IMG/VR virus record: IMGVR_UViG_3300047495_000037
Location: 1-34,857 of that record
Length of the DNA: 34,857 nucleotides
Reading direction: 5' to 3' (one strand)
Source: a virus
Below are positions 11,858-28,862 of this stretch, piece after piece. The notes below the pieces were generated by a model. It was not told the origin of the DNA. It saw only the letters and a program-made list of their open reading frames with translations, and did not search any database. Position 1 is the stretch's first letter; each line of letters starts with the position of its first letter. A program made the position numbers and the translations under genes.

Positions 11858-12697
11858 GTGGATATCGTGACGCTCTTGAATCAAAAAGGAGGGGTCGGAA
11901 AGACCTCGACCACGCACCACCTGGCCGGCACCCTGGCCAGGATGGGCCGGAGTGTCCTCCTGGTGGATAATGATCCCCAGTCGTCGCTCTCGCAGGGGCT
12001 CTACGGCCCGGCCGAGGCTCTCTCACTCGATCCAGCGGTGACGATCCATGCGATCCACACCGGTGAGCAACCGTTTCCCGAAGACATCATCCGGCCGACC
12101 GGGATTCTCGGCATCGACCTGGTTCCCGGCTCCGAAGCCGCTGGCGTGCTCAACGCTCGCGACCCGCAATCGCTTGGTTCCGACGACTGGGATCGGCTCA
12201 AAGATTTTCTGGTAGAGGCCGGGCCAAATTACGAGGTATGCTTGATCGATTGCCCACCGAACCTGTACTATTGTTCGTGGGTGGCCCTGGTCGCGTCCGA
12301 TGGCCTGGTGGTGCCGATGCAGGCCGAGGATTACGGGGTCCAGGGGATCGCCGCCGTCCGACGCTCGATCGAGCTGGTCCAGGCCGGTCCCAACCCGTCA
12401 CTCCGGTTGCTCGGTTACTTGCTGACGATGGTCGGCCGCAAGGCGATCCACCAGGTCAATGAGGAGATCCTCCGCGAGACCTATGGGCCTCTCATTTTCG
12501 AGACGGTGATCCCCGAAGCCGTCCACTATGTCGAGGCGATCACCAACCGCAAACCCATCGCCGATTACAAGCCCAAGTCCGCCGCCGCCAGGGTCATGCA
12601 AGCCCTGGCCGACGAGCTGGTCCGGCGCATCGAATCAGGACCCCCGCCCGCCATCGCCCGCGACGTCGCGTTTCCAATCACCGAGGAGGCCGCCTGA
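11858..12697 (+). CDS. parA: ParA-family partition ATPase
   Basis: A 279-residue Walker-type ATPase that moves plasmids or prophage circles to daughter cells by forming DNA-bound gradients with ParB. The deviant Walker A motif KGGVGKT is at residues 10-16 with the signature Lys10, Walker A' VDNDPQSS at 36-43, and Walker B CLIDCPPN in the middle. No N-terminal helix-turn-helix, so it is the short Soj-like type. Start GTG 11858 with GGAGG upstream. It is 2 bp from parB and flanked by palindromic candidate centromeres. Confidence 0.95.
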   Translation: MDIVTLLNQKGGVGKTSTTHHLAGTLARMGRSVLLVDNDPQSSLSQGLYGPAEALSLDPAVTIHAIHTGEQPFPEDIIRPTGILGIDLVPGSEAAGVLNARDPQSLGSDDWDRLKDFLVEAGPNYEVCLIDCPPNLYYCSWVALVASDGLVVPMQAEDYGVQGIAAVRRSIELVQAGPNPSLRLLGYLLTMVGRKAIHQVNEEILRETYGPLIFETVIPEAVHYVEAITNRKPIADYKPKSAAARVMQALADELVRRIESGPPPAIARDVAFPITEEAA

Positions 12698-12699
12698 AA

Positions 12700-13665
12700 A
12701 TGGCTACGAAATCCGAGAGCATGAAAAAGGGGCTGGGGTCGAACATCAAGGAATCGATCGGGGCAGGGGGGGGAAAGCCAGCCAATCCCGCCGCTCCGCC
12801 GACCCCCAAAGCGCCGTCGCTCAAGTCCGAAGGGGTCGAGCGAAGCCGCAATGTCTCGCAGATCCCGCTGGGCTCGATCATGGCCGACGCCGGCCAGCCG
12901 CGCAAGGAGTTCGACCAGGTCGAACTCCAGCAGCTCGCGGCGTCGCTGAAGTCGATGGGCCAGCTCCAGCCGATCCAGGTCTGGTGGTCGGCTCCCGACC
13001 AGCGCTACATCATCGCGGTCGGCGAGCGGCGATGGCGAGCCGCGAAGATCGCTGGTCTGACCACGATCCAGGCCGTCATCCGCGAGTCCAGGCCCGACGA
13101 AAAGGAGCTGAGGGCGATCCAGTTGATGGAAAACTGTATCCGCCAGGATCTCCAGCCGATCGAGCGATCCGAGGCGATGCGCGATCTGATGCTGGTCCAC
13201 GGCTACGGCCAGGCCGAGCTGGCCAAGCAGCTCGGGTTCAGCCAGGGATTGATCAGCCAGGCTGTGGCGATCCTCGATCTCCCCGAAGAGGTCAAGGCCA
13301 AGGTCTCGGCCGGCAAGATCACGGCCAAGGCCGCTTACGAGCTGACCAAGCTGGAAACGGCCGAGGAACAGCGCGAGGTCGCCGGCCAGATCGAGTCCGA
13401 CAAGCTCTCGACGGCCGACGTTGGCAAGGTCGTCAAGAAGCGGGTCGCCGCCAGCAAGGCCGCAGCCCCGGCCACGCCGACGACTCCCGGCAACGCTCCC
13501 AAGCCCAAGCCCAAGGTCGCCAATAAACCGACCGAGCGGATTTTCAACCACGCGGGGATCAAGCTGGTCGCCTCCCGGGGTCGGGGTTTCGACAAGACCG
13601 AGTTACGCGAGGCACTTGAAAGCGCTCTGACCCAGGTCAACAGAGAGTTGAGCGAGGTCGCCTAG
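12700..13665 (+). CDS. parB: ParB-family partition protein
   Basis: A 321-residue ParB, the CTP-dependent DNA clamp that loads at parS and stimulates ParA. GERRWRA at residues 108-114 and ENCIRQDL at 144-151 are the family's nucleotide-binding motifs. The helix-turn-helix follows at about 170-192 (QAELAKQLGFSQGLISQAV), and a Pro/Ala/Lys linker precedes the C-terminal dimerisation part. The N-terminal 45 residues are basic and low complexity. ATG 12700 is preceded by GAGGAGG near the end of parA. Two parS-like sites and a terminator follow. Confidence 0.95.
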   Translation: MATKSESMKKGLGSNIKESIGAGGGKPANPAAPPTPKAPSLKSEGVERSRNVSQIPLGSIMADAGQPRKEFDQVELQQLAASLKSMGQLQPIQVWWSAPDQRYIIAVGERRWRAAKIAGLTTIQAVIRESRPDEKELRAIQLMENCIRQDLQPIERSEAMRDLMLVHGYGQAELAKQLGFSQGLISQAVAILDLPEEVKAKVSAGKITAKAAYELTKLETAEEQREVAGQIESDKLSTADVGKVVKKRVAASKAAAPATPTTPGNAPKPKPKVANKPTERIFNHAGIKLVASRGRGFDKTELREALESALTQVNRELSEVA

Positions 13666-13753: not shown

Positions 13754-13788
13754 AAGGGGGGCCGATTCCACAGGAATCGGCCCCCCTT
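13754..13788. terminator. Bidirectional rho-independent terminator
   Basis: A perfect 16-bp stem (13754-13769 with 13773-13788) closed by ACA. The left flank is A-rich and the right flank T-rich, so it can end transcripts from both directions. It separates rightward parAB from the leftward structural module. Confidence 0.9.
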
Positions 13789-13812: not shown

Positions 13813-14181
13813 TCACAGCCCGTAGCAGAGCTGGTCCCAGACCGATGCGACACGGTTCAGCAAGTCTTGATCCGAACTCGCGTACGAGGTCACCCCGTCG
13901 CACGCCAGCGCCGCCAGGGCGTTTGACGCATAAAGGGTCGGGTTCGAGAGGGCCAGTCGCGCGTAATTCTTGCGGCTCGACGCGTTGGTGAGGCTATTAT
14001 CCTCCTGGATCACGGCCAGGGCGTACTCGACCAGTGCGACCTGGGCTGCCTGCGCGAAGGATGGGCTGTAGACCGAGACCAGCGCCGTGGCGATGGTGCC
14101 GCTGGCGATCGTGACCGTGACCGGTGACCCGGAATTGTAGGTCAGTGAGACATCGGAGGAAACGGTGAGCGTGGTGGACAT
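13813..14181 (-). CDS. Hypothetical virion-module protein, 122 aa
   Basis: Last gene of the leftward structural module. The N-terminal 40 residues are beta-rich (TLTVSSDVSLTYNSGSPVTVTIASG), then a helical Ala-rich C-terminal part with a few aromatic residues. It has no signal peptide or catalytic motif. Position after tail genes suggests a tail-tip or fibre-associated protein, but a lysis-related protein cannot be excluded. Not recognised. Confidence 0.6.
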   Translation of the reverse strand: MSTTLTVSSDVSLTYNSGSPVTVTIASGTIATALVSVYSPSFAQAAQVALVEYALAVIQEDNSLTNASSRKNYARLALSNPTLYASNALAALACDGVTSYASSDQDLLNRVASVWDQLCYGL

Positions 14182-24191: not shown

Positions 24192-24901
24192 GGTGTCCCC
24201 CATTTGGATCGGAGGTAATTGGTCACTGCGCTGTCGTTACCCGTGATGAGCGCGCTGTTGAACAGAAGCAGCTCACCCAGGACGACGTTGCAATTTTCGC
24301 TGGCAATGTTGTCTGAACCGATAAAAAATGGCAGATTCGACCCCTCGGGCGGATTCAGCGCCGACCGCGAGACCGAGGAGGAGTCGACCGACAACACGCC
24401 AATCTCAGTCGAACTCGAATAAAGATATTTAACGATATGAGGCGTCCCCGTCGTTGGAGTTGGACTGCTGCCGATACTAAACTGACTGTTCATATTAACA
24501 CTCAAATTAGGTGGCGACCCGCCATCGGTACTGAGGTCCATGTCGGTCGAGTAGCTGGTATAAATCAGCTTGCTGTATGTCGGCCAGGAGACCGGAATCA
24601 AAGCGAGATAGAGCGAGAGGCTGGTCGGCTGAGCGAACGTGGGAGTGCCGAGCGAACTTCCGGTGAACGTGAGCCCCGGAAGCCCGTTGAACGCGGTCGA
24701 GCCGTAAGCGGGCTGTTTCGAACCGGTGGACTGCGTCGCGTTGCGGCCGTTCCCGCTGAGGTCGTTCCACTGGCTGACACCGGTGCCAATCGTGATCGAG
24801 CCCGCCGCGCTCGCGTCAAGCCAAAGCATGAGTCCTGAGATCGACGACGGTGAGAACCCAACCGCTGGCGGGTTCATGAGCGAGAAGGGCAATCCAAACA
24901 T
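24188..24901 (-). CDS. LamG/concanavalin-like surface protein
   Basis: A 237-residue protein with GLMLWLDASAAGSI, VSQWNDLSGNGRNA and LPGLTFTGSS, the hallmarks of LamG/ConA-like jelly-roll domains that bind sugars or surfaces. A C-terminal LGELLLFNSALITG closes the fold. The domain is near the size of a single LamG unit. Gene order among capsid proteins suggests it decorates the capsid or a head fibre rather than the tail tip, but this is an inference. Confidence 0.7.
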   Translation of the reverse strand: MFGLPFSLMNPPAVGFSPSSISGLMLWLDASAAGSITIGTGVSQWNDLSGNGRNATQSTGSKQPAYGSTAFNGLPGLTFTGSSLGTPTFAQPTSLSLYLALIPVSWPTYSKLIYTSYSTDMDLSTDGGSPPNLSVNMNSQFSIGSSPTPTTGTPHIVKYLYSSSTEIGVLSVDSSSVSRSALNPPEGSNLPFFIGSDNIASENCNVVLGELLLFNSALITGNDSAVTNYLRSKWGTP

Positions 24902-24902
24902 A

Positions 24903-26081
24903 TCAAGCCACTCCCGTCAGAGCGTTGAGCGTGACGCTTGTTCCGTCCTCCGAGTACCACCCGATCTGATCCTTCGAGTTCGCGGCGGTCGAGAGCACCG
25001 GCTTGACGCCTCCCACGCCTTTGTACGCTGATCCCCAGGTAACGACGCGACCTCCCGTCCCGTCCTGGGTTATTGTGAGCACCCCCGAACCGCCGGCCCG
25101 GAGATTTGTGGGATTGCTCACCGTGAAATTTGAGTTTGGTGTGAGCGTTGCGTTGGGCGCGAGGTCCATATTCCACGCGACCGTAACGCCCGGCGTGAGA
25201 GCCACCGGTGTGATCACCTGCTGCCGTGTAAATGCGGTGACCGTTCCGGGAGCTGCATAATCCGTGCCCGCTGCCGCGGTCGAGAGGACACCGGCTGTGG
25301 CCTTGAGGACACCGCTCAGCCCAGTGGGCAAAGTGACGGTGCCCGTGAAGCTGGGCGATGCGATTGTGGCGAGAGCCGCCAGGGCAGCGGCCAGGCCAGT
25401 GACCTGACTCTCGGAGATGGAGCCGGTGATTGATCCCGCGTTGCCCGCGATGTTACCGGAGATCTGCGAGCCGGGAATCGTCGGCAAATCGGTCGCCTGG
25501 AGTGCCCGGAAGGCGGGAGCGGCATTGAAGCCCGACGCTGGCCCGGCGAACACCAGGGCCTGGGCCTGGGTCGCGAGGGTCACCGCGATCGTGCCCGAGC
25601 CGGTGATGGGCGAGTTGGCCACCGCGAAGATCGCGGGCATCGACAGCCCGACCGAGGTCACCGTCCCGCTGCCGCCTCCACCGCCTCCACCAGCGTTCAC
25701 AACGGTGATGGTGGAGTTCAGCGCGTCGATTGCGGCGACAACAGCGGTATTGAGGTCCTGGACCGCACCCGACGAGGCAAAGATACCGACCTTGTCGCCA
25801 GGGGCCAGCGGAATATCGCTGTAGCCGTCGAGCGTGCTTGCGACCGTCAGGGTATCGCTGACGACCGCCGTCACAAGAAAATGGACATGCCGGCCGTCGG
25901 ACGTGGTCCGGATCGCCGACACGCGGAGCGGTGCTGCCGAGCTGGGGGAGCCAAACAGCGACCCCGTCCCCGGAGCCACGGTCAGCGACCCCGAACCGGT
26001 CGCGTAGCCGCCGGAGCCGACGGTGGTCTCGACCCCATCCCTGGGGACGCAAAACGTGGGGACTGAAACGGGATTGAGCAT
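24903..26081 (-). CDS. Tail-fibre-like repeat protein
   Basis: A 392-residue low-complexity protein with the recurrent fibre motif GTVTSVGLSMPAIFAVANS, then FRALQATDLPTIP and GNAGSITGS, well known from phage fibres. A Gly8 stretch (about residues 130-138) separates an N-terminal beta domain from the fibre shaft. It ends 3 bp before the LamG-like gene. As its neighbours are head proteins, it may be a head fibre; the tail tip is the alternative. Confidence 0.72.
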   Translation of the reverse strand: MLNPVSVPTFCVPRDGVETTVGSGGYATGSGSLTVAPGTGSLFGSPSSAAPLRVSAIRTTSDGRHVHFLVTAVVSDTLTVASTLDGYSDIPLAPGDKVGIFASSGAVQDLNTAVVAAIDALNSTITVVNAGGGGGGGSGTVTSVGLSMPAIFAVANSPITGSGTIAVTLATQAQALVFAGPASGFNAAPAFRALQATDLPTIPGSQISGNIAGNAGSITGSISESQVTGLAAALAALATIASPSFTGTVTLPTGLSGVLKATAGVLSTAAAGTDYAAPGTVTAFTRQQVITPVALTPGVTVAWNMDLAPNATLTPNSNFTVSNPTNLRAGGSGVLTITQDGTGGRVVTWGSAYKGVGGVKPVLSTAANSKDQIGWYSEDGTSVTLNALTGVA

Positions 26082-26104
26082 GAGAGTCTCATGTATGCAA
26101 AAGC

Positions 26105-26158
26105 AGTGGGTAGTGGTCAGTGGTTAGTAATGCAACGCAATGGAATCCACTACCCACT
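26105..26158. repeat. Hairpin repeat copy 1 (GTCAGTGGTTAGTAATGCAA family)
   Basis: AGTGGGTAGTGG (26105-26116) pairs with CCACTACCCACT (26147-26158), a perfect 12-bp stem with a 30-base loop. The loop bases GTCAGTGGTTAGTAATGCAA match those of the copy at 26703-26763. Sequence is AT-richer than the genes around. Confidence 0.8.
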
Positions 26159-26165
26159 AGCGAGA

Positions 26166-26681
26166 TCAGGAGTCTTTGACGGTCGCGCCCAGGAGGATCA
26201 CGGCTCCGGTGTGCGTGTCCGCGACGGCGGTGGACACCCGCCGGAGCCGGAGCAGGAAGTTGTTGCCGGCTGCCAAGCTCGATAGCTTGCTGTTGGCCAC
26301 GGTGATGGTCGCAACCGTGACGTTGCCCTCGGTCGAGCTGAGGGTCACCGTCGCCGTGGCCTCGTTGGTCTGGGCCGGTGGTGTGATGACCCCTCCCGAG
26401 GTGAGGGGCACAATCGTGGCCCCGAGGACGACGGCCGCACCCGGATCAGGGTTGTTGGCGTCGTCGACGATCACCACCTCGACCGTCAGACCGGTCGAGA
26501 GCGGGGTGCCATTGGCCCAGACCTTGCCCAGGGCCAGGTAAGCCGACCCGTCGGCGGTCGGACCGCCCTTGCCCAGCCGGACCCCCGAGACCGCGCCCGC
26601 CGGGACGAGTTGGCCGAGGCGGCCGGATTCGGAGGTGAGCGCTTGCGGCTGGTAGCGCTCGAAGATATCACCGCTTGCCAT
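26166..26681 (-). CDS. Head decoration protein candidate, 171 aa
   Basis: A 171-residue beta-rich protein right after the major capsid gene, the usual slot for a capsid stabilising/decoration protein. It has Thr/Val/Ala rich strands (ATATVTLSSTEGNVTVATITVANS) and a basic LLRLRRVS near the C-terminus. Two hairpin repeats (26105-26158, 26703-26763) bracket it exactly, separating it from the capsid and fibre genes. Confidence 0.6.
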   Translation of the reverse strand: MASGDIFERYQPQALTSESGRLGQLVPAGAVSGVRLGKGGPTADGSAYLALGKVWANGTPLSTGLTVEVVIVDDANNPDPGAAVVLGATIVPLTSGGVITPPAQTNEATATVTLSSTEGNVTVATITVANSKLSSLAAGNNFLLRLRRVSTAVADTHTGAVILLGATVKDS

Positions 26682-26702
26682 GTTCGGAGCCTTTCTGGGT
26701 GT

Positions 26703-26763
26703 AGTAGTCAGTGGTTAGTAATGCAATGGAATGGAATTCACTGACCACTGACCACTGACTACT
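26703..26763. repeat. Hairpin repeat copy 2 (GTCAGTGGTTAGTAATGCAA family)
   Basis: AGTAGTCAGTGGT (26703-26715) pairs with ACCACTGACTACT (26751-26763), a perfect 13-bp stem. The right arm region contains three tandem CACTGAC units. The loop core is shared with copy 1. Confidence 0.8.
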
Positions 26764-26771
26764 GTTTTCGA

Positions 26772-27701
26772 TCACTCGGCCGTCGAGTAGAGCTGGGCCA
26801 TGTTGGGACGCACGACACTCGCGCCGAAACCGGCGTCGATGTTCACGAGCCAGCCGGACTTTTCGACCGAGTAGCCGAACGTGATCCGGATCGGCAGGCC
26901 CTTCCAGTCGATATACGTGAACTCGCTGACCTTGGGGTCGGGCTTGGGCAGGGGGCGGTAGGCGGCGGCGATGGCCCAGCGGTGCATCAGGACCGAGGTA
27001 TACGTATAGGAACCGACAGTGCCGGTGGTCGGCATCTGCTGGTCATACTTGGACATCGCCCCGTAGATTTCCCGGAGCTGGCCGCCGGTCCGGGCCTGAA
27101 ACGCGATCGGCAGGCCGACGATGCTCTCCTGGGTGAAGCTGTTGTTCTGGAGAGCGTTTCCGTACACCTGGGGGGCCATGATCAGCGACATGTTCGCCGA
27201 GTCCATGACGGGGACCTTCTGGTTGACCAGGTTGGTCCAGCCGCTGATCACCTGCGCAGGGCTGATGCTCGAACCCGTGGTCGAGATCGTGCCGTTGAAC
27301 GCCAGGTTGGCCGAGTTGAGCAGGCCGGCGAGATAGTTATTGACCCACTCGGCAATGCCCTTGATCGCCGGATCGACCATCAGGTTGCGGATCGACTGGG
27401 GGCTGTTGTACTGCTCGAAGTCGTTGATCTTGTAGCCGAACTGGGGATGCTGGTTGAAGACGATCGGCTCGGTCGTGAACTCGACGTCGGAGAACGTCGG
27501 GTCATTGGTCCCGATGTTCTCGACCTCGCTCGAGACCGGGTTGGGGATCGCGATATTGAGCGTCTGGCCGGTGGCGGCCTCGGTCGGACTGTAGTCCTGA
27601 TAGATCGCGTCCATCAGGGCGGTGGTGCCGACCAGGACCTGGCTGGCCTCGCTCGCGGCGGCGACCAGGGTCTGGAAAAAGCTGCTGATCTGATTGGCCA
27701 T
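26772..27701 (-). CDS. Major capsid protein (HK97-type)
   Basis: A 309-residue protein forming the capsid shell. Order (scaffold upstream, decoration downstream) and length fit the HK97-fold family. Recognisable parts are the N-terminal helix (MANQISSFFQTLVAAASEASQ), SEVENIGTNDPTFSDVEF, a spine helix (IKGIAEWVNNYLAGLLNS) and a C-terminal KGLPIRITFGY. The N-terminus lacks a long processed delta domain, consistent with a separate scaffold. 139 bp of upstream leader (27702-27840) contains short GC hairpins. Confidence 0.82.
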   Translation of the reverse strand: MANQISSFFQTLVAAASEASQVLVGTTALMDAIYQDYSPTEAATGQTLNIAIPNPVSSEVENIGTNDPTFSDVEFTTEPIVFNQHPQFGYKINDFEQYNSPQSIRNLMVDPAIKGIAEWVNNYLAGLLNSANLAFNGTISTTGSSISPAQVISGWTNLVNQKVPVMDSANMSLIMAPQVYGNALQNNSFTQESIVGLPIAFQARTGGQLREIYGAMSKYDQQMPTTGTVGSYTYTSVLMHRWAIAAAYRPLPKPDPKVSEFTYIDWKGLPIRITFGYSVEKSGWLVNIDAGFGASVVRPNMAQLYSTAE

Positions 27702-27840
27702 CGGAAAACATTCCCGGATGGGTGAATGGGTCGCGTCGATACGCTTCCCGGCCCGTCACGGGTCGAGTGCTGTGGCCCATCGCGGGCCGTCGTGGGGCGG
27801 CATCGCCCCGGTGTCGCATCAAAGTACGGCGGATGCGTCG
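27702..27840 (-). promoter_or_regulatory. Leader of the major capsid gene
   Basis: A 139-bp gap in an otherwise tightly packed module. Short GC stems occur (GGCCC...GGGCC near 27783, GGGGCG...CGCCCC near 27795). They may stabilise or boost capsid mRNA. No clear promoter. Confidence 0.35.
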
Positions 27841-28479
27841 TCAGTCTTCCATGATCAGCGTGCCGGCCTTGCGAGCCTCGTTGATCTTCGATGCGTTGTC
27901 CTTCATCCAGGTGTAATCCTGGCTGTTCGCCTTCGTCACCCGGAAGCCGGGGATCTGGATGTTGCCGCCCCCCCGTCCGTTGTCCATCACCACATCGAGC
28001 TTGGTTTTGACCGGCGGCGTGGTGACCGTCTTCTCGGTCTGGCCCTGGCCTTCGGCCGGCTGAAAGAGGTAGCTCTTCGCGGCCTTGACCGTCTCGATCG
28101 TCGAACTGATCGCGGCGGGGTCGGGAGTGTCCCCCTCGGCCTTGTAGCCCGAGAGCGTCCACAAGTCGTCGATCGCTTCAGGCCGGACGCCCTGGGCGGC
28201 GGCGGCGGTGTCGAACGCCTTGCGGTGGGTTCCGACCCGGATCATGCCTTCCAGCTCACTGACCTTGGCGGCCAGCTCGGGGGCCGAGGTCTCGGCCTTG
28301 CTCTTCCAGTCGTCGCGATCCTTCGAGAGGTTCGTGACGGTGCCCTTGAGGGTCTCATTCTCTTCCGAGAGCTTCTTCCCCTTGACCCGGCGATCTTTCG
28401 CCTCGGCCTTGAGGTTGATGGTTTCGCTCTCCAGTTCGTTCACCCGGCGCTGCAGGCTCTTGATGAGTTCGTCGGACAC
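27841..28479 (-). CDS. Scaffolding protein
   Basis: A 212-residue helical protein. Residues 1-85 form a charged coiled coil (Leu, Glu, Lys) of the scaffold type, and the middle and C-terminal parts are acidic (TPPVKTKLDVVMDNGRGGG at about 155-175). Scaffolds guide capsid assembly and then leave. It sits just upstream of the capsid gene with the right size. No protease motif was found. Confidence 0.75.
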   Translation of the reverse strand: MSDELIKSLQRRVNELESETINLKAEAKDRRVKGKKLSEENETLKGTVTNLSKDRDDWKSKAETSAPELAAKVSELEGMIRVGTHRKAFDTAAAAQGVRPEAIDDLWTLSGYKAEGDTPDPAAISSTIETVKAAKSYLFQPAEGQGQTEKTVTTPPVKTKLDVVMDNGRGGGNIQIPGFRVTKANSQDYTWMKDNASKINEARKAGTLIMED

Positions 28480-28550
28480 GGATCAAATCTCGCTGGTATA
28501 AAAGTTCGGATTTCTAACGTCGGCTTGGGACACGCTGCGGCATCGGCCGG

Positions 28551-28862
28551 TCAGTCGTCGAGGTCTTCGCGGATCGGGACCGGCTTGCCTTCGATCAGGT
28601 AATGCAGCTCATGCATCCGCTTGGATTGCTCGGGGGTCGGCCCTTTGGGGATCTCGCGGCCCATCTTGATCAGGTCCTTCTTCTCATCCCGGTTCAGATA
28701 CTGGACCAGTCGCGGCTTGGTTCCGAGCCGGACCACGACGGTCCCCAGGAGCTGAAGCTCGCGCAATTCTTTGCGGTAGGCTTGCTTGGCCTTCTTGCGG
28801 GCCAGGGCCTCGGCCTGGGGATCGGCGGGGGGCTTGGTGGGCTTCTCGGTTGCTTCAGCCAT
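28551..28862 (-). CDS. Hypothetical protein, 103 aa
   Basis: Not recognised. Start ATG 28862, overlapping the portal stop by 8 bp; the longer frame to 28964 is a shadow of the portal gene. Basic, with Lys/Ala/Pro-rich N-terminus and helical remainder, between portal and scaffold. Head-assembly role by position only. Weak near-palindrome CGCAA-TTCT-TTGCG at 28762-28775. Confidence 0.6.
   Translation of the reverse strand: MAEATEKPTKPPADPQAEALARKKAKQAYRKELRELQLLGTVVVRLGTKPRLVQYLNRDEKKDLIKMGREIPKGPTPEQSKRMHELHYLIEGKPVPIREDLDD

Follow-up and report, generated by a model that had tools for sequence, protein, structure and literature searches.

A short open reading frame (ORF) beside the major capsid protein gene of an uncultured phage is bracketed by two hairpins that share a core sequence, and the question that this locus raises is whether the hairpins are the ends of an element that brought the gene in, or intergenic repeats of another kind. 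The window, by which we mean the whole stretch of DNA analysed, is one complete IMG/VR record of 34857 bases.

The orphan ORF and its two hairpins

The orphan ORF of 171 amino acids (26166..26681, minus strand) lies between both hairpins and adjoins the major capsid protein gene (26772..27701, minus strand; PHROG 283, E 2.8e-20), which is upstream of the right hairpin and whose product is weakly matched by capsids of Streptomyces phages. A 392-aa tail-fibre-like gene (24903..26081, minus strand; PHROGs 9625 and 9017) lies downstream of the left hairpin. No homologue of the 171-aa protein was found in the libraries searched, and its predicted structure (mean pLDDT 46.6) gave no fold match with E <0.001. 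From its location beside the capsid gene it may be an accessory protein of the virion; the label “decoration protein” of the initial annotation, for which this position is the sole basis, is unproven. The phage has no close relatives as judged by portal, capsid and terminase: the capsid protein, the terminase and the 171-aa protein are without a relative in the viral contigs, the portal is without a match in the phage records, and phage DNA similarity to the region of the 171-aa gene did not rise above chance. Duplication of a hairpin and a gene as one unit was considered and rejected, the 171-aa and 392-aa proteins being dissimilar.

The core shared by the hairpins, GTCAGTGGTTAGTAATGCAA, is present in two exact copies, 26116..26135 and 26707..26726, both on the plus strand, with no further copy in the window at up to 3 mismatches (100 shuffles also gave none). 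The left hairpin (26105..26158) has a perfect 12-bp stem, AGTGGGTAGTGG/CCACTACCCACT (26105-26116/26147-26158), and a 30-nt loop containing the core. The arms of the right hairpin (26703..26763), AGTAGTCAGTGGTTAGT and ACTGACCACTGACTACT, are complementary at 16 of 17 positions and include a perfect stem of 13 bp, AGTAGTCAGTGG/CCACTGACTACT (26703-26715/26751-26763); its 3′ arm contains three tandem CACTGAC heptads (26739..26759, plus strand), i.e. a CCACTGA array. Thus the two hairpins with a common core and the tandem CACTGAC units were correctly recognized in the initial annotation. The loop sequence of the pair is AATGCAAYGNAATGGAAT, and the left and right copies, in direct orientation, are 88% identical over 49 nt. 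Five mononucleotide shuffles of the window contained 0-2 perfect stems of at least 10 bp each, the longest being 10 bp.

Both hairpins are intergenic, the left one in the gap 26082-26165 and the right one in the gap 26682-26771, and they occupy the sole gaps that flank the 171-aa ORF. They were said to stand exactly at both ends of the gene, which is true in that both gaps are filled and inexact in that 7 nt separate the left hairpin from the stop of the ORF and 21 nt separate the right one from the start codon of the ORF. The sequence itself shows that each hairpin starts 6-8 nt past a stop codon and ends ahead of the next ribosome site. The sense-strand RNA of the right gap folds at -31.7 kcal/mol (z -5.4) and that of the left gap at -26.6 kcal/mol (z -4.2), to be compared with z values of -1.6 and -0.5 for the nearby stretches 27702-27840 and 28480-28600, respectively; both hairpins are stable as DNA too. 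The outer stems differ between the copies while the loop is common. Because each arm pairs with its own partner at 12/12 positions and crosswise at 9/12, the core being identical, the arms have changed while complementarity was kept, through either selection or templated correction.

The record carries plasmid partition genes for ParA (11858-12697) and ParB (12700-13665) on the plus strand (11858..13665). Among the plasmid matches listed, the best ones for both proteins are in Planctomycetota; the first six for ParB are from Planctomyces sp. SH-PL62, Singulisphaera and Isosphaeraceae EP7, in keeping with the planctomycete label given earlier, and the first match listed for the recombinase is an EP7 plasmid. 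ParA/ParB make a planctomycete phage-plasmid the probable identity of the record. The heptad repeat CAGTGGTNAGT is absent from ten planctomycete plasmids, so that a planctomycete host would be no more than a putative source of the repeat. Two further palindromes were observed in the window. One, at 13754-13788 between the ParB gene and 13813-14181, which converge, is perfect over 16 bp, AAGGGGGGCCGATTCC, around a loop of 3 nt and resembles a bidirectional terminator. The other is a perfect stem of 10 bp, CCCGGCCGGA, likewise with 3 nt in its loop, present twice (2439-2461 and 2880-2902) at a distance of 441 nt.

Heptad arrays in the gaps of other phages and of bacteria

Searches of IMG/VR gave no exact copy of the core in any other viral contig, and a degenerate form of it has seven matches in bacterial genomes, which is about the number estimated by chance; several of these are within CAGTGGT runs, and one, in an Acidobacteriota genome (L003), carries the same kind of hairpin. 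The arms tell more: those of the window hairpins are built of the heptad TCAGTGG/CCACTGA, a case of a general NNACTGA heptad that recurs between the genes of dozens of other uncultured phages. Absence of the repeats from all other genomes, which the initial annotation named as counting against its reading, holds for the exact core in the collections searched and fails for the arms. ACTGANNACTGANNACTGA has one match in the window (reversed control, 0), and at least three CCACTGA units occur in 50 IMG/VR stretches as against 13 for the reversed heptad. Runs of CCACTGA fall in gaps 38 times and in genes nine times, the reversed control six and eight times, respectively.

Where arrays are opposed, TCAGTNN comes first and NNACTGA follows in 35 of 35 viral cases (25 when the overlapping contig L050 is left out) and in six of six bacterial loci, and the right copy of the window has the same arm order (G-C-C). 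Repeat dyads number about 125 in 15.2 kb of gaps and 8 in 101 kb of genes of eight records, these figures being sums over the rows printed and two of the contigs (L106 and L076) being parts of one record that may overlap. Single arrays in co-directional gaps follow the strand of the next gene (sense to antisense, 40:8; P 1.7e-6), and the distance from their end to the start codon is mostly 0-50 nt; gap and orientation counts are approximate, as they come from a simple GC-based gene caller that misplaced the early plus-strand genes of the window. The triple CCACTGA array of the window is antisense and is one of the eight exceptions to this orientation. Nor does the right hairpin put a sense-strand array at several nt from the start codon, as ~27 nt, which include an SD-like AGAAAGG, separate its sense-strand CCACTGA from the ATG.

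Such elements can be very dense, one 31-kb record having 90 triple heptads, and a hairpin or array is borne by 8 of 11 gaps in L010, 12 of 17 in L106 and 10 of 12 in L076. As most gaps carry one, a gene flanked by these hairpins is ordinary in those phages; in another phage contig (L011) a 164-aa ORF is similarly flanked by two hairpins that share a loop. Sharing of loops within one genome is seen in the window pair, in three hairpins of L011 and in two hairpins of G001, whose loops are near-identical. In an arm-swap test on two other phages no hairpin-specific pairing was detected (0.935 and 0.999 of permutations were as good), so that in general selection may act on something other than complementarity. 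Between the near-identical phages L036 and L069 there are two 1-bp indels, both in non-heptad sequence; near-identical phage pairs further showed one 1-bp indel, at a contig end beside a spacer, and no changes of heptad count.

The arrays are not uniform in composition. In the 31-kb record G213 and the contigs that overlap it (L106, L076, L042 and L050), gap elements have AATCAGT-type and GGCCAGT-type arrays, and these two-flavour arrays surround a TTTTTGCCTTT spacer in both orientations. In L037, L057 and L066, further heptads, e.g. AGGATGA, TTGTCCT and TGACTCC, stand beside CCACTGA arrays, so the gaps of these three may host several heptad families.

In bacteria, the class is scattered across Acidobacteriota, Bacteroidota, Firmicutes and Streptomyces plasmids. 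Genomes with triple NNACTGA numbered 30 of 149 in Acidobacteriota, 16 of 80 in Bacteroidota and 4 of 80 in Pseudomonadota, and the matches per genome ranged from 0 to about 1,275; the contrast with the reversed control is weaker here, since ACTGACT-type units match both readings and the control also scores in some bacterial genomes. Four identical hairpin copies are present in a Selenomonadaceae genome (G003), and in Streptomyces and Pantoea plasmids the repeats lie in stretches that are non-genic or carry no annotation. Two contigs (C2 and C4) of one Acidobacteriota genome (G073) contain about 1,275 triple ACTGAGG-type heptads, with an arm order often opposite to that of the phages.

The window hairpins thus belong to a widespread intergenic class 5′-(TCAGTNN)n - loop - (NNACTGA)m-3′, which occupies gaps of many soil phages and bacteria and is recognized by its composition, arm order, intergenic position, loop-sharing copies in the same genome and presence in other phages and in bacteria.

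Comparison with described repeats and signals

The nearest described kind of repeat is the TAACTGA heptad, found intergenically in Beggiatoaceae, cyanobacteria and some Bacteroidetes (PMC4679880). The two have in common a seven-base unit, an ACTGA core, tandem arrangement and intergenic location, and, like the arrays of the phage set, TAACTGA repeats mostly stand in sense orientation ahead of start codons and are scattered across phyla. They were described as direct repeats in bacteria, with one indirect repeat in the BOGUAY genome, in a paper that makes no mention of phages (PMC4679880). In contrast, the first two bases here are usually CC, TT or GG (the units of the window are CCACTGA, not TAACTGA), the arrays often form opposed pairs and phages are included. 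TAACTGATAACTGA was absent from 115 loci, among them the window stretches around both hairpins (L001 and L002). Another seven-base intergenic repeat is GGGAATC of Xanthomonas and Nostoc, studied in bacterial genomes, sometimes in inverted repeats and of G-quadruplex type (PMC4692102), which, unlike the window heptad, is built on a different unit.

REP elements are GTAG- or CGTC-tagged palindromes of 20-40 bp with an unpaired tag, the GTAG type being associated with a RAYT transposase (PMC3733652). Similarly to the elements described here, they are small intergenic palindromes; they exist in many copies, also in Planctomycetes, and are possibly mobile (PMC3733652). They differ in their arms, which in the window are made of heptad arrays, and in their tag, which in the window is not at an unpaired foot in both copies (GTAG 26701-26704 overlaps the foot of the right stem and GTAG 26110-26113 is inside the left stem). 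The phage record itself has no Y1 transposase (PF01797), a host-encoded enzyme being conceivable, and has two hairpin copies in 34.9 kb. The SAS/ESAS repeats of cluster K mycobacteriophages, as given in PMC12699233 after Pope et al. 2011, lie in gaps by start codons, ESAS being 17-nt imperfect inverted repeats. They share with the window hairpins their phage-borne, gap location, but have no heptad structure, and the SAS/ESAS consensus GGGATAGGAGCCC had 0 matches in the window at ≤2 mismatches. The PeSL stem-loops between genes of T4-type phages (Arbiol 2010 and Comeau 2014, as cited in PMC4503421) include an early promoter and are proposed to mediate gene shuffling. Unlike PeSL, the window hairpins come with no promoter that we found: a scan for sigma-70-like promoters in 24500-28600 returned 0.

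Neither hairpin was called in a scan for intrinsic terminators that covers loops of 3-8, and inspection of the minus strand by eye showed no T run after either stem. Rfam 15 gave nothing at the gathering cut-off, the best E value of 0.66 being at chance level, and no match to the heptad sequences was found among open-licence papers. Intergenic heptads are known in bacteria, while their occurrence in phages and the opposed arrays are undescribed in the papers found.

Origin and putative role of the hairpins

The initial annotation proposed a small insertion, mobile or derived from a repeat, with or around the gene. In its mobile form, the hairpins would be the ends of a small, moron-like element that placed the 171-aa gene between the capsid and fibre-like genes. 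This would account for 88% identical direct copies around a single orphan gene and for the similar position of the 164-aa ORF in L011, and it has a parallel in the gene-shuffling PeSL cassettes of T4-type phages (references in PMC4503421). We regard it, however, as distinctly unlikely: the scans described above gave no promoter or terminator at the hairpins, the target-site duplication that the initial annotation had asked for was not seen by eye, a Y1 transposase of the IS200/RAYT type is lacking in the record, such hairpins occupy most gaps in other phages, and the 171-aa gene has no relative that shows movement, neither a relative with the gene nor one with an empty site having been found. 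Since flanked genes are the rule in hairpin-rich phages, the main reason for proposing a gene cassette is removed. The earlier proposal is retained insofar as the hairpins are repeat-derived, being members of a dispersed intergenic heptad class, and lacks support insofar as it implied a gene-carrying insertion. That the hairpins are recombination or processing sites, e.g. direct-repeat sites for a phage serine recombinase, origins or packaging signals, is very improbable; a serine recombinase is encoded in the record (217-990) and recombination of the two direct 49-nt copies could delete the gene, but the same kind of hairpin in many gaps of many phages with no detectable protein relatedness, and in bacteria, is unlike one specific site.

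A possible though doubtful alternative is that the repeats are neutral or selfish and have no function for the phage, heptad arrays having grown by polymerase slippage, arms having been made complementary by template switching inside the hairpin, and the result being tolerated in gaps. Heptads are over-represented among bacterial simple repeats, for which slippage was proposed as the cause (cited in PMC4679880 and PMC4692102); no hairpin-specific pairing of arms was detected in two other phages; and the number of arrays varies hugely among genomes, from 0 to about 1,275 matches. Slippage and tolerance alone, however, would not lead one to expect an arm order of 35:0 or a start-codon orientation of 40:8, and slippage should amplify any heptad, while one NNACTGA core recurs across phyla.

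We favour an account that combines membership of the heptad class, copying within the genome, a role as intercistronic RNA hairpins and no carriage of the 171-aa gene, and we give it as a whole a probability of roughly 0.55. On this account, one hairpin with its arms and loop would have been copied from gap to gap inside the window phage or a related genome, and its arms would then have been altered by gain, loss and correction of heptads with complementarity retained. The putative transcribed hairpins would stand between late-operon cistrons in the order capsid - orphan - fibre-like. As they start 6-8 nt after a stop codon and end before the ribosome site, which is left free, their effect would be to insulate the individual cistrons and stabilise them, and not to block translation. 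The most likely reading of the sequence is that the hairpins are transcribed between cistrons and have spread through copying inside genomes, with the function inferred; that the hairpins brought in the 171-aa gene as a cassette is not supported. A wider proposal is that the cross-phylum class of hairpins, with its fixed arm order, serves phages and hosts alike as an intercistronic RNA signal read by a conserved factor of the host; the host of a phage could then be predicted from its heptad flavour. We consider this proposal unlikely.

For the window, a likely false lead of a jumping capsid-accessory gene is removed. Should a full survey bear out the arm order and the start-codon orientation, these would provide a testable rule for an unexplained class of repeats, and the flavour of the arrays could then serve as a host marker for uncultured phages.
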